NCBI GenBank assembly: GCA_007124095.1 | Contig: SLFU01000094.1 | Span: forward strand, 1-39,981 | Origin: Gemmatimonadota bacterium | GTDB lineage: Bacteria; Gemmatimonadota; Gemmatimonadetes; Longimicrobiales; Gaopeijiaceae | Direction: 5' to 3' | DNA length: 39,981 bases | Part shown: in pieces, positions 34,560-39,981 of the stretch | Layout: each line of letters begins with the position of its first letter | Numbering within the stretch: position 1 is the first letter of the stretch | Translations under genes and position numbers: made by a program | Notes under the pieces: model-generated | Seen by the model: only the letters and a program-made list of their open reading frames with translations | Databases searched by the model: none | What the model was told of the DNA's origin: nothing

Positions 34560-34886
34560 TCACTCGACGTAGACGACGTCCGCCCGATCGAGAAACTCGG
34601 CGAGCCGCTCCACCGCGTCACGGGCGGCGTCCCGATCCTGATCGCCTCCGGAAGTCTCGAGTTCGGCACCGATGGTGGTAATCACAGGAAAGCCGAACCC
34701 ACCGCCCGTTCCCTTGATCGAGTGACCGATCGAGCGGATGGTGGCGAAGTCTCCCTCGCCCACCGCCTTTCTCAGGCGGGAGAGATCGGTTCTTCGGTTC
34801 TCCAGATAGCGTGGGATGAGGGGCCGGAGCTCAGCGGATATCTCCACCCGAAGTGGGGTGCCCGGAGGATTGTTCGAGGGTCTCAT
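34560..34886 (-). CDS. Free-standing Hpt phosphotransfer protein
   Basis: Histidine phosphotransfer protein, 108 residues. The Hpt signature is IRSIGHSIKGTGGGFGFP, with phospho-accepting H55; the rest is a four-helix-bundle pattern with RYLENRRTDLSRLRKAVGEGD before and ERLAEFLDRAD after it. It would pass phosphate between receiver domains of the hybrid kinase and the ATPase-receiver protein encoded upstream in the same operon. ATG 34886 overlaps by ATGA the stop of a six-codon mini-frame, itself coupled to the ATPase gene, and there is no Shine-Dalgarno of its own, so translation probably depends on re-initiation. Confidence 0.88.
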   Translation of the reverse strand: MRPSNNPPGTPLRVEISAELRPLIPRYLENRRTDLSRLRKAVGEGDFATIRSIGHSIKGTGGGFGFPVITTIGAELETSGGDQDRDAARDAVERLAEFLDRADVVYVE

Positions 34887-34903
34887 GTTTCCGAGGATCT
34901 CAT
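34883..34903 (-). CDS. Six-codon coupled mini-cistron 2
   Basis: Minus-strand frame MRSSET-stop, coupled by ATGA to mini-cistron 1 upstream and to the Hpt gene downstream (34886-34883). Same origin and same caution as mini-cistron 1. Confidence 0.4.
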   Translation of the reverse strand: MRSSET

Positions 34904-34920
34904 GTTTCTGAGGGTCTCAT
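34900..34920 (-). CDS. Six-codon coupled mini-cistron 1
   Basis: Minus-strand frame MRPSET-stop. Its ATG overlaps the TGA of the ATPase-receiver gene (ATGA, 34920-34917) and its own TGA overlaps the ATG of mini-cistron 2. The first four residues equal the start of Hpt (MRPS), which shows that it arose by duplication of the Hpt start region. Expression as a peptide is unproven; the likely role, if any, is in translational coupling. Confidence 0.4.
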   Translation of the reverse strand: MRPSET

Positions 34921-37163
34921 GTTGTGGTCCCTGATCGGGCCGCCTGTGGCTCTACCCTTCGATCCAGGACCCGCTCGAGTCGGAGGAGAAGGACCTTCTT
35001 GGACACCGGTTTCCGCATGTAGTCAGCTGCACCGAGGGAGAGCACTTTCTCCTCCAGGGTGTCGTCGGCGTCTCCGGTGAGGAAGATGGCCGGGACGTCG
35101 AGTCCCTGGCTCGTGATCATCTCCATGAGCTTGACCCCGTCCAGGTTCGGCATGTTGATGTCGGAAATGACGACATCGACCTCGTGGCGTGCCAGCGCCA
35201 TCAGGCCCTCCATTCCGTCAAACGCCGATACCGTCCGATATCCCGCACCGGTGAGGTAGAGCTCCATCAGGGCATGCAGGTCGGGGTCGTCGTCGACGAC
35301 GAGAACCGTGGTCGCGGCTGAGCCGGATTGGTCGGCAGAGCCCACCGTCTCGCCCACGTCAGGGGTGGGCTCGTCGGTCCTGGGGCCGGCGGCGCTCAAG
35401 GTTTCCGCCTCGTCAGGATCCGAATCGGAAGGGAGACTTGCCTTCCGATCGATTGCCCGTTGAAGCTGGAGCTCCTCGACCAGTACCTGCTCGTAGGCTT
35501 CCTGAACCGGAATCGATCGGGACCGGATCCGGTCCAACGCGTGATGCCCGATCAGATAGTGTCCCTCGGCAGCCAGGTAGGCGCGGATCTCGGCGATCGG
35601 TGCTCCCCGCTGAACCATTCGAGAGATCGCCGTGTCGAAGCGAATGACCTCGCAGACGGCGAGTCGGCCGGAGTACCCCGTGTCCCTACAGGCCGGGCAC
35701 CCCACGGCTCGGGCGACCTCCGCCGGAATGTCGTCCGTGAAGGGCTCGAGAAGCTCCCTCTCCTGGGTCGTGATCGGCCCGATCTCGCGGCAGCTGGTGC
35801 AGAGCTTCCGGAGGAGCTTCTGGGAGACGACCCCGCTGATCGCCTCGGCCATCGCACTTCTCTCGAGCCCGAGCCGCTCGAGCCGAAAGATTGCGGTGGT
35901 GGCGTTCGAAGAGTGGAGGCTAGAGATCGTGAGGTGGCCCGAGCTTGCGAAATCCAGCAGCGCCTGAGCGGAAAAGCGGTCTCGAACCTCTCCCAGAAAG
36001 AGGATGTCCGGATCCTGCCGCATGGCAGAGCGGAGAAGCGACTCAAACGTCACCCCCGCCCGTTCTCGAACCTGCTGCTGGTTGGCGTAGGGGATCCGGT
36101 ACTCGACCGGGTCCTCCACCGACATGATGCTACGGCTCTCTCCGTCCACGGTGCTCAGGAGGGTGAAAATCGTGGTCGACTTCCCGCACCCGGTGGGACC
36201 GACCACCAGGATCATGCCTTGTTGCTGTGCCGCCAAAGCGCGGAGCTCGGTGGCCTGAACCTCGGTGAAGCCGAGGTCTTCCAGGGGGACGGGTTCCAGG
36301 TTCGGCTCGAGGATTCGAACCACCAGGGTCTCACCGTCGGACGTGGCGCTGGTCGCCAGGCGCAGCTTGAAGCGCCGGTCGTCGAAGGAGGCTTCCACCG
36401 CTCCGTCCTGCGGCTTGCGCCGCTCCGCGATGTCCATCCCAGCCGAGACCTTCAGCCTGGAGACGACCCTGGCCGCCGTGGCACGATCCAGGGTGCGAAT
36501 GTCGTGCATCTCCCCATCGATCCGGTACCGAATCAGGGTTCCGCGCTCCTTGGGCTCGAAGTGGACGTCGCTGGCTCGTTCCCGGACTGCACCCCGCAGG
36601 ATCTCGTTTCCCACTGTCGCCGCCGAGCTGCGCTCCAGCTGGTCCTCCAGCTCATCGTCCGGAGCCTCGGGGGACTCGAGGGAGAGGACCCCGGCGGGCC
36701 CGGAATCCTTTTGGAGGATGTCCCCGTCGTCGGGGCCGGTTACGGTGCGAATCGTGTCCGGTTCGGCGAGAGCGATGTTCGGCGCTCCCCCTCTCCAGAG
36801 GGTACGTTCCAGGGTGTCGATGAGCGGCCAGTCGAACGGGTTCGCGATCACCACTCGACCGTCGACGAGGGGCGCCACGAGGTTCGCGTGGCAGAAGTTT
36901 CCCGAGAGGACGCCAGGGAGGACTTGTTCGGCGTGGAGACGCTCGAGAAAGGGCACTTCGAGAAATCGCGCCAGATAACGACACACCTGGTCGTCGGGAA
37001 GGTGGAGGACCCGGCCCAGCTCGTAGAGGTCGGTCGGCGACACGGCCGCGACAGCCGACCGAAGCTCGGGATCTGGGGACCGGGGCTCGAGCAGACTCCG
37101 CTTGAAGGCGGCAAAGGTTTCCGGGAGGAGCCAGCTCTCACGGCGGGCCGGGCGATCGGTCAT
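34917..37163 (-). CDS. GspE/PilB-type assembly ATPase fused to a receiver domain
   Basis: Type II secretion/type IV pilus motor ATPase with a C-terminal response-regulator receiver, 748 residues. N-terminal MshEN/T2SSE_N-like part (about 30-140); ATPase with RASDVHFEP, Walker A GPTGCGKST (322-330), Asp box SIMSVEDPVEY, Walker B ILFLGEVRD with E392, His-box LTISSLHSSNATTA, and the zinc tetra-cysteine C455/C458, C489/C492 of GspE/PilB. After an acidic Pro-rich linker (about 575-618) comes a complete REC domain: VDDDPDL, phospho-acceptor D668 (VISDINMPNLDG), LTGDA and RKPVSKK. All catalytic residues of both parts are intact. It overlaps the hybrid kinase gene by ATGA and is coupled to Hpt, pointing to direct phosphorylation control of the motor. 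Confidence 0.93.
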   Translation of the reverse strand: MTDRPARRESWLLPETFAAFKRSLLEPRSPDPELRSAVAAVSPTDLYELGRVLHLPDDQVCRYLARFLEVPFLERLHAEQVLPGVLSGNFCHANLVAPLVDGRVVIANPFDWPLIDTLERTLWRGGAPNIALAEPDTIRTVTGPDDGDILQKDSGPAGVLSLESPEAPDDELEDQLERSSAATVGNEILRGAVRERASDVHFEPKERGTLIRYRIDGEMHDIRTLDRATAARVVSRLKVSAGMDIAERRKPQDGAVEASFDDRRFKLRLATSATSDGETLVVRILEPNLEPVPLEDLGFTEVQATELRALAAQQQGMILVVGPTGCGKSTTIFTLLSTVDGESRSIMSVEDPVEYRIPYANQQQVRERAGVTFESLLRSAMRQDPDILFLGEVRDRFSAQALLDFASSGHLTISSLHSSNATTAIFRLERLGLERSAMAEAISGVVSQKLLRKLCTSCREIGPITTQERELLEPFTDDIPAEVARAVGCPACRDTGYSGRLAVCEVIRFDTAISRMVQRGAPIAEIRAYLAAEGHYLIGHHALDRIRSRSIPVQEAYEQVLVEELQLQRAIDRKASLPSDSDPDEAETLSAAGPRTDEPTPDVGETVGSADQSGSAATTVLVVDDDPDLHALMELYLTGAGYRTVSAFDGMEGLMALARHEVDVVISDINMPNLDGVKLMEMITSQGLDVPAIFLTGDADDTLEEKVLSLGAADYMRKPVSKKVLLLRLERVLDRRVEPQAARSGTTT

Positions 37164-39325
37164 CGATCGGCACCTCCGCCTTCCCGGTTTGCACGGTACC
37201 GCTCAACGATCGCGACCAGCTCGTCCTTCCGGATCGGCTTGGTCAGGTGGTCGTCGCATCCGGCTGCCCGTGTCGTCTCTCGTTCCTCCTCGAGAGCGTG
37301 GGCCGTGAGCGCGAGAATCGGGATCGGCGGGCGCTCCTCTGCCGCTTCGAGCGCACGGATCTCGCGAGTCGCCTGGAGGCCGTCCATCTTGGGCATCTGG
37401 ATGTCCATGAGGACGAGGTCGAGGTCGTCCGTCCGACGGAAGGCTTCCAGGGCTTCTCGACCATTTTCCGCCATCACGAGTTCCAGAGTCGGGTCCTTCA
37501 GGTAGAGCTTGATGAGAAGCCGATTGTCCTCGACGTCTTCGGCGACCAGGATACGAAACGGGCGGGATGCGGGTGGTGTGGGATCCGGTTCGTGGGGTGG
37601 GCCCGGCTGCGTCCGGTGGTCCGTAACTTCTGTTGTGGCGGTTTCGGGACGCTCTTCTTTGTTTGCCATATGGAGGCGTGCAAGGGCCTGCGCGAGTGCC
37701 TTGCGTTGCACCGGTTTCACCATGTAGCTGCGAACGTTGAGGTCCTTGGATCGGGCGATGTCACCCCGGCGGTCGAGGGAGGTGAGCATGAAGACGGTCG
37801 CTCCCATCTTTACGTGGTCGTCTTCGATAACCTGGGCGACCTCGAAGCCGTCCATCCCCGGCATCTGTCCATCGAGGAGGATCAGGTCGAAGGGGCAAGC
37901 ATCACGCTCCGCGCCCCGGATCAGGGCGAGAGCTTCGGGGCCGCTCGCAGCCTCGACGACCTCACTTCCCCAGCCCATGAGGAACTCGGAGAGGATCAAG
38001 CGGTTCACGGAGTGGTCGTCGACCACGAGGCTTCGGATCCCTTCCAGATCGGCGTCCTCGATTCCCCTCAGGTCATGGCGCGCTTGGTCGTGTCCCTCCA
38101 TCGGGAGGACGAACCGAAAGCGGCTTCCCCCCTGCGCGGGGCTCTCGACCAGCAGTTCCCCCCCCATGAGTCCGACGATTCGGGAAGCGATGGTCAAGCC
38201 GAGCCCGGTTCCGCCGTGCTCCCTCGTCGGCGAGCCGTCGGCCTGAGTAAAGGGTTTGAAGAGCTCGGATCGGAAGCTGTCCGGAATCCCGGGTCCGGTG
38301 TCAGAGACGATGAACTCGATGAAATGTTGCTTCTGCCTCGGCCTCGCCTTGTGCGACCCTGCCAGTTGAACTTCGACGACCACCTCGCCGCTATCGGTGA
38401 ATTTCACCGCGTTTCCCACGAGGTTGGTCAGCACCTGACCCAACCTCGTCGCGTCGCCCCGAACTGCGGTCGGGACCTCCGAGTGAATTCGGAACACGAG
38501 CTCGAGCTCCTTCTGGTGGGCCTGGACGGCGAAGACCTGGCCAATGTCCTCCAGGAGCTCGTCGAGGTGGAGCGGCTCATCCTCGAGCTCGATCCCGGTG
38601 GCCTCGATCTTCGAGAGATCCAGGACGTCGTTGATCAGATCGAGGAGGGTCTGTCCGGCGGACTGGAAGATCTCCACGTATCGCCGCTGCTCTTCGCTCA
38701 GGTCGGTCTCGGCCAGGAGGCTCGCCATCCCGATGATGGCGTTCATCGGGGTGCGGATCTCGTGGCTCGTGTTGGCGAGGAACTGGGTCTTGGTGATGTT
38801 TGCCGACTCGGCCATTTGCTTGGCCGCGCGGAGGTCTCGCTCCTCTCGCTTCCTCTCTGTGATGTCCCGATAATTGGCGTAGGTCCCCACGCGGTGGCCC
38901 TTGAAGCGAATCGGCTGTGCGAGGATCGAGACGTGGACCGGACTGCCATCCGCCCTCATGCGGATGACATCCGCCTGGATTCGATCGTCCGTGTCCTCGC
39001 TCAGCCTCTGGGTGAGCTGTCGCGCCTCCTCCTTTTGCTCGGCGGGGACGAGGAGGTCGTCGATATTCCGGTCGACACAGGCGCGCTTAGGGTGCCCGAA
39101 GAGCCGTTCGAACTCCCGGTTCACCCGGAGGATTCGGCCGCCCTTTCCCAGCAGGCAAATGGCCTCCGGCACCGTCTCGAAGAGCGCTTCGAAGAAGGCA
39201 TGCCCGAACTCCGTGTTCCCCTCCAGCCCGGCGGCGGTGCCGGCCTTCGTGAGGGCATCCTGGAGCGAATCCCCGTCCTGCGAGCCCGAGTCGGCACCCC
39301 CACTGCCGGGGTGCGGGTCTGGCAT
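37160..39325 (-). CDS. Cytoplasmic hybrid histidine kinase PAS-HK-REC-REC
   Basis: Hybrid sensor kinase of 721 residues with no membrane segment. A PAS domain (about 42-160; FFEALFETVPEAICLLG, ending YRDITERKREE) senses an unknown intracellular signal. HisKA has H188 in NTSHEIRTPMNA; HATPase shows the N box NLVGNAVKF, SDTGPGIP and GGTGLGLTIASRIV. Two receivers follow: REC1 with D485 (LILLDGQMPG) and KP, REC2 with D641 (LVLMDIQMPKMDG) and TKP. The set lacks its own Hpt, which is supplied by the last gene of the operon. ATG 39325 has GGGAG eight bases upstream. Its TGA overlaps the ATG of the ATPase-receiver gene. Confidence 0.93.
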   Translation of the reverse strand: MPDPHPGSGGADSGSQDGDSLQDALTKAGTAAGLEGNTEFGHAFFEALFETVPEAICLLGKGGRILRVNREFERLFGHPKRACVDRNIDDLLVPAEQKEEARQLTQRLSEDTDDRIQADVIRMRADGSPVHVSILAQPIRFKGHRVGTYANYRDITERKREERDLRAAKQMAESANITKTQFLANTSHEIRTPMNAIIGMASLLAETDLSEEQRRYVEIFQSAGQTLLDLINDVLDLSKIEATGIELEDEPLHLDELLEDIGQVFAVQAHQKELELVFRIHSEVPTAVRGDATRLGQVLTNLVGNAVKFTDSGEVVVEVQLAGSHKARPRQKQHFIEFIVSDTGPGIPDSFRSELFKPFTQADGSPTREHGGTGLGLTIASRIVGLMGGELLVESPAQGGSRFRFVLPMEGHDQARHDLRGIEDADLEGIRSLVVDDHSVNRLILSEFLMGWGSEVVEAASGPEALALIRGAERDACPFDLILLDGQMPGMDGFEVAQVIEDDHVKMGATVFMLTSLDRRGDIARSKDLNVRSYMVKPVQRKALAQALARLHMANKEERPETATTEVTDHRTQPGPPHEPDPTPPASRPFRILVAEDVEDNRLLIKLYLKDPTLELVMAENGREALEAFRRTDDLDLVLMDIQMPKMDGLQATREIRALEAAEERPPIPILALTAHALEEERETTRAAGCDDHLTKPIRKDELVAIVERYRANREGGGADR

Positions 39326-39814: not shown

Positions 39815-39981
39815 GTGCCACGGCCGGCCCGAACCGAGAGATCCGGCGGTTTTACGCTGATCGAAGTCCTGGTGAGCCTGGTGATTCTGAGCGTGGGAGT
39901 TCTCGCTCTTGGTCAGCTCTTCTGGTTCTCGTCCAGGATGAGCACGGACAGCTATCTGAGAACAATGGCCCACGTGCAGGC
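39815..39981 (+). CDS. Prepilin-like protein (PilV/GspI type), 3' end cut by window
   Basis: The first 55 codons of a type IV pilin-like or pseudopilin gene. A short basic leader (PRPARTERSG) ends at the prepilin-peptidase site G/FTLIEVLVSLVILSVGVLA, with the conserved E5 of the mature protein and the hydrophobic N-terminal helix. The GVLAL-GQLF continuation is typical of minor pilins annotated PilV. GTG 39815 is preceded by GGGAGG at six bases. It runs off the window end. It lies divergently beside the assembly-ATPase operon, tying that ATPase to a pilus or type II secretion apparatus. Confidence 0.88.
   Translation, partial: MPRPARTERSGGFTLIEVLVSLVILSVGVLALGQLFWFSSRMSTDSYLRTMAHVQ

Follow-up and report, generated by a model that had tools for sequence, protein, structure and literature searches.

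A three-gene Gemmatimonadota operon encoding a hybrid kinase, a receiver-fused extension-type ATPase, and a free Hpt protein

Gene organization of the operon

The window, the whole 39,981-nucleotide stretch analyzed here, is the entire contig C9 of a 2.83-Mb Gemmatimonadota assembly of 242 contigs (genome G000). Toward one end of it lie three minus-strand genes (Table 1). The original prediction described them as a PAS hybrid kinase with two receivers, a GspE/PilB ATPase with a C-terminal REC, and a free Hpt. Its coordinates and strands are correct, and Pfam found PAS-HisKA-HATPase-REC-REC, T2SSE-REC, and Hpt in the three proteins. The phosphorylation sites it named, H188 of the kinase, D668 of the ATPase receiver, and H55 of the Hpt, are also correctly placed.

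Table 1. Positions of the operon features and of the adjoining prepilin gene in the window
Feature	Position	Strand	Details
Hybrid kinase, 721 residues	37160-39325	-	Pfam: PAS, HisKA, HATPase_c, two Response_reg
PAS of kinase	38882-39196	-	
HisKA of kinase, H188 codon	38762-38764	-	
HATPase_c of kinase	38096-38458	-	
REC1 of kinase	37682-38029	-	D485
REC2 of kinase	37205-37552	-	D641
ATGA stop/start overlap, kinase gene/ATPase gene	37160-37163	-	
ATPase-REC fusion, 748 residues	34917-37163	-	Pfam: T2SSE (E 2e-100), Response_reg (E 1e-24)
Degenerate MshEN-like N-domain of ATPase	about residues 10-145		
T2SSE core of ATPase	35550-36617	-	
Walker A GPTGCGKST, residues 322-330	36174-36200	-	K328 invariant in 66 REC-fused ATPases
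Disordered linker of ATPase	about residues 577-614		
C-terminal REC of ATPase	34977-35306	-	D668 codon 35160-35162
Three 17-bp repeats, ATPase/Hpt junction	34870-34920	-	Repeat starts 34920, 34903, 34886
Free Hpt, 108 residues	34560-34886	-	Pfam Hpt, E 6e-10
Hpt phosphoacceptor H55	34722-34724	-	Within GHSIKGTGGGFGF
Divergent PilV-like prepilin N-terminus	39815-39981	+	GGFTLIEVLVSLVILSVG; cut by contig end

All genes had been thought to be joined by ATGA overlaps. This is the case for the kinase and ATPase genes, but the ATPase/Hpt junction is built differently. The stop of the ATPase gene overlaps an ATG, and the frame opened there runs for six codons only. A 34-bp chain of two such six-codon mini-ORFs, each ending in ATGA, precedes the Hpt gene, whose start codon (34886) is the third ATG of the repeat chain. 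In the congener (G001), both junctions are direct ATGA overlaps with no chain. Judging from the sequence, the 17-bp repeats probably arose when the gene start was duplicated in tandem, with the chain of stop-start overlaps preserved.

The signaling residues of the three proteins are complete. HisKA and HATPase of the kinase are intact, and each of its two receivers retains the phosphoacceptor aspartate (D485 and D641), the acidic pair, the Thr, and the Lys. The kinase core is closest to the curated models of BarA, TorS, and ArcB, with scores below the cut-offs of every equivalog listed. None of the 19-residue segments of the kinase reaches the hydrophobicity expected of a membrane-spanning helix, in agreement with the cytoplasmic location originally proposed, and a plausible transmembrane helix is absent from all three operon proteins. 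The receiver of the ATPase carries the full DD/D/T/K set (D624/D625, D668, T696, and K718) of a terminal receiver. The Hpt has its acceptor histidine and is free in the window operon and kinase-fused in relatives. No second stand-alone Hpt was found in the genome, where the one other Hpt domain belongs to an unrelated HK-REC-REC-Hpt kinase on contig C17; the congener likewise has a single free Hpt.

About 490 bp separate the starts of the kinase gene and the PilV-like prepilin gene. In the congener, PilV and a PilX-like gene are located at the opposite end of the operon compared with the window, so that the blocks are swapped and still adjacent. Prepilin genes also flank the ATPase-REC gene of G005 and that of one deltaproteobacterial locus. 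Other neighborhoods are of a different kind. Three ATPase-REC loci, L040 (G008), L101/L202 (G351), and L096/L203 (G323), lie by flagellar genes, which are FliL and FliM, FliW, and MotB. Downstream of the ATPase gene, the Fermentibacterota loci encode a C25 peptidase that bears a secretion tail.

Identity of the ATPase and its N-domain

The original prediction called the fusion protein a GspE/PilB ATPase. Membership in the extension-ATPase superfamily holds, as the protein has the T2SSE fold, Walker A, Asp box, Walker B, His box, and tetracysteine, and the catalytic motifs of its core are intact. The narrower assignment does not hold, since both equivalog cut-offs are missed: the protein scores 320 bits for PilB (TIGR02538, cut-off 675.65) and 340 bits for GspE (TIGR02533, cut-off 630.25). 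Among curated models and PDB sequences it matches GspE best, its PDB matches include 1p9r, 5oiu, and 5tsg, and its predicted core fold matches PilF, PilB, and GspE. A retraction ATPase of the PilT type is ruled out (138 bits, cut-off 319).

A canonical PilB (756 bits) is encoded on contig C8, together with PilT and the only T2SSF/PilC platform of the genome; no platform gene lies beside the window ATPase. The cut-offs and this separate PilB-PilT-PilC locus rule out that the window protein is the PilB or GspE of the genome. The low PilB and GspE scores and the canonical PilB on C8 indicate an additional ATPase, which may share the PilC platform or may have turned into a signaling protein. Compared with PilB, GspE, and MshE, it shares the T2SSE core with Walker A and B, the four-cysteine site, and the hexameric-ATPase fold. 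It differs from them in being far under the PilB and GspE cut-offs, in its degenerate MshEN domain without the c-di-GMP motif, and in the added C-terminal REC. In the predicted structure, the N-domain, the ATPase, and the receiver are three well-folded modules with disordered linkers. This modular model fits a tethered regulatory domain and does not indicate the sign of control.

The N-domain does not qualify as the c-di-GMP-responsive MshE type, as its MshEN match reaches 21.4 bits against a cut-off of 23.1. NF053729 is absent among the best 25 of 110 families for the window ATPase, and the c-di-GMP motif pattern is absent from all eight members of the window ATPase clade. The strict pattern occurs in 1 of 67 REC-fused and 23 of 65 unfused ATPases, in a comparison whose set is mixed and which ignores kinship. 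The canonical PilB of the same genome has a c-di-GMP motif detected by NCBIfam. Because the motif is lost from the N-domain, phosphorelay input appears to replace c-di-GMP input, and phosphorylation would have taken over as the control input of the ATPase.

Recurrence and conservation of the fusion

ATPase matches that reach into a REC were found in at least 100 of the 395 sampled Gemmatimonadota genomes, a lower bound among the matches listed. A Gemmatimonadetes genome encodes an ATPase with 90% identity to one of these matches. Outside the phylum, a contig scan with ATPase-motif patterns, which is a sample and no census, found further REC-fused ATPases in Candidatus Fermentibacteraceae, Deltaproteobacteria, and Mariprofundaceae, and one with an N-terminal receiver in Marinobacter. 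The recurrence in at least 100 genomes and in other phyla rules out an assembly join or chance as the origin of the fusion. The Marinobacter protein (sp. C7, L137, 2221-13623) is apparently an independent receiver-ATPase fusion; its neighbors encode histidine kinases, separate receivers, an Arf-like GTPase, and a REC-PAS-GGDEF-EAL protein.

The search across genomes proposed with the original prediction also covered co-occurrence with the relay genes. An HK-REC-REC kinase and an Hpt lie directly beside the ATPase-REC gene in 12 of the 67 distinct fusions with neighborhoods. In one further case, from the second clade described below, a free Hpt gene precedes the ATPase-REC gene with an ATGA overlap. 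Given the recurrence in other genera and a second phylum, the arrangement looks like a real, unstudied sensor-to-ATPase wiring. Most REC-fused ATPases of the phylum have no adjoining kinase. Such kinase-less genes (L098, L099, L080, L091, and similar) are kept in many genomes of two sister families, next to anthranilate synthase-like, his-like, and FHA-GAF-guanylate cyclase genes. In one clade (L208, L209, L211, L214-L220, L222, and L227), the operon continues after the ATPase-REC gene with a separate REC gene.

In the ATPase-core tree, the window protein and seven others form a clade (support 100, stem 1.17), two of whose members are from Fermentibacterota. HK-REC-REC and an Hpt of matching subtype accompany five of these eight ATPases; the Hpt is free in three cases and kinase-fused in two. 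The three loci with a free Hpt, encoded after the ATPase, are those of the window, the congener, and G349, a member of another genus with a full HK-REC-REC, ATPase-REC, and free Hpt operon and an ATPase identity of 38%. In the two Fermentibacterota, the same Hpt subtype forms the C-terminus of the kinase, adjoining a REC-ATPase-REC gene. A second, separate REC-fused clade contains seven HK-REC-REC-Hpt operons (G029, G020, G070, G147, G325, G360, and G164). Identity of the window Hpt is 33-51% to Hpts from loci of its own ATPase clade and 13-23% to those from the other clade. That the Hpt is fused in some operons and free in others argues strongly, at the genomic level, for a joint function of kinase, Hpt, and ATPase-REC. 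The distance matrices of kinase, receiver, Hpt, and ATPase are also correlated (r 0.63-0.92, p 0.0005), partly from shared clade structure.

All operon domains are under purifying selection between the window genome and its congener. The pN/pS values are 0.17 for the ATPase core, 0.31 for the ATPase receiver, 0.30 for each kinase receiver, and 0.53 for the Hpt, compared with 0.11 for the canonical PilB. The Walker lysine K328 and the catalytic glutamates E354 and E392 are present in 66 of 66 REC-fused ATPases, and the receiver residues D668, T696, and K718 in 64, 65, and 63 of them. The low pN/pS and the conserved residues indicate that both halves of the fusion are maintained. Two ATPases, those of G349 and G029:C102, have lost GE(I/V)RD and the His-box histidine and kept the REC residues. 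These proteins (L078, 4316-6565; L042, 8385-10589) are candidate phospho-regulated pseudo-motors.

Proposed phosphate flow and alternative functions

Multistep phosphorelays of the HK-REC-Hpt-REC type are represented by the ArcB, BarA, and RcsC families. The operon has the full set of His and Asp relay residues of such systems, whereas its terminal receiver sits on a T2SSE ATPase and not on a DNA-binding or cyclic-nucleotide output. The wiring HK-REC-REC-Hpt-REC(ATPase) is well supported by the operon conservation, the fused and free Hpt, the conserved acceptors, and the single free Hpt. In this scheme, the PAS kinase would autophosphorylate at H188 and pass the phosphate to its own receivers (D485 and D641). 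These would phosphorylate H55 of the Hpt, from which the phosphate would reach D668 on the receiver tethered to the PilB/GspE-like hexameric ATPase. Phosphorylation of D668 would alter ATPase activity or partner binding, and the ATPase most likely works the PilC platform instead of, or in competition with, PilB. We infer which way the phosphate moves, how it acts on the ATPase, and that the machine served is the pilus. The proposed path is favored because the operon Hpt is the only free one found, while the genome has about 40 receivers, so other phosphate routes and targets are possible.

We consider it more likely than not that a dedicated phosphorelay controls this accessory extension-type ATPase, which lacks the c-di-GMP motif and most likely acts on the single PilC platform. 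The relay part of the original prediction, a dedicated multistep relay with an ATPase-fused terminal receiver, is supported by comparative genomics. Its further claims, that the terminal output is the motor itself and that phosphorylation switches it fast, do not have such support: the PilB and GspE scores lie below cut-off, a canonical PilB exists elsewhere, and G349 has degenerate catalytic motifs while the relay is kept. The loss of these motifs within a full operon suggests that full motor activity may be dispensable there. The window ATPase might likewise be a signaling hub or pseudo-motor that drives no filament, with phosphorylation and nucleotide state setting the binding and release of partners. 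Its divergent clade on a long stem far from PilB and GspE, the two receiver-bearing relatives with lost motifs, the distance from any platform gene, and the intact canonical PilB would all suit such a role. A signaling PilB is documented in M. xanthus, where PilB regulates exopolysaccharide independently of pilus assembly (PMC5544727). However, the window catalytic motifs are intact, its ATPase core is more constrained than its other parts, and none of the 66 fusions departs from Walker A or the catalytic glutamate, and we regard this role as rather unlikely.

The machine served could also be other than a type IV pilus. The GspE matches, the relatives among flagellar genes, and the secretion-tailed peptidase of Fermentibacterota would suit an ATPase that serves secretion, a pseudopilus, or flagella. 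However, the T2SSF matches of the genome are confined to the PilB-PilT-PilC locus, and prepilin genes adjoin the window operon, that of the congener, the G005 gene, and the deltaproteobacterial one, so we consider a non-pilus machine improbable. Even less credit is given to the receiver being chiefly a phosphate sink or a kinase docking scaffold with the true output elsewhere. The many receivers of the genome and the separate REC gene after ATPase-REC in several loci would allow for this, but the three-gene operons contain no transcription-factor output or any other possible effector, and the acceptor machinery is complete in nearly all of the 66 fusions.

PixE with PilB1 and PilG with PilB show that extension ATPases can be targets of separate response regulators, in trans. 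In Synechocystis, the PATAN-CheY protein PixE binds PilB1 and controls phototaxis (PMC7690835). As is proposed here from the genes, the target of the response regulator there is the pilus extension ATPase itself, but PixE is a separate protein acting in trans, whereas the operon receiver is covalently attached and comes with a dedicated Hpt and hybrid kinase. The Pseudomonas Pil-Chp system, with ChpA and its Xpt domains and with PilG and PilH, acts on PilB (PMC12632253, PMC11656802), and PilG affects PilB localization (PMC12632253). Pil-Chp resembles the operon in being a phosphotransfer system that controls the localization and activity of an extension ATPase; it differs in being chemosensory, with separate regulators and FimX/PilZ intermediates. 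In the passages searched, the two reviews make no mention of a REC fused to PilB. The open-licence literature we searched knows two-component control of pilus extension ATPases through separate regulators (PilG, PixE) only, and we found no report in it of a REC fused to PilB or GspE with a private phosphorelay.

We tentatively suggest, at somewhat less than even chances, that several lineages independently made an extension-type ATPase a direct phosphorelay output, in which an attached receiver with its own Hpt and kinase replaced c-di-GMP control. If true, these independent conversions would let a kinase set filament assembly post-translationally, with neither a transcription factor nor a second messenger. 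They would widen phosphorelay outputs beyond transcription factors and second-messenger enzymes. A swap of c-di-GMP for phosphoryl input is suggested in a large, mostly uncultured bacterial family. The fused receiver and private relay make direct phospho-control of an ATPase testable with few purified proteins. Separately from the operon, contig C198 of the same genome encodes a further PilB-like ATPase of 611 residues (L047, 4898-6733), which has the c-di-GMP motif and lies on a contig without a platform gene.
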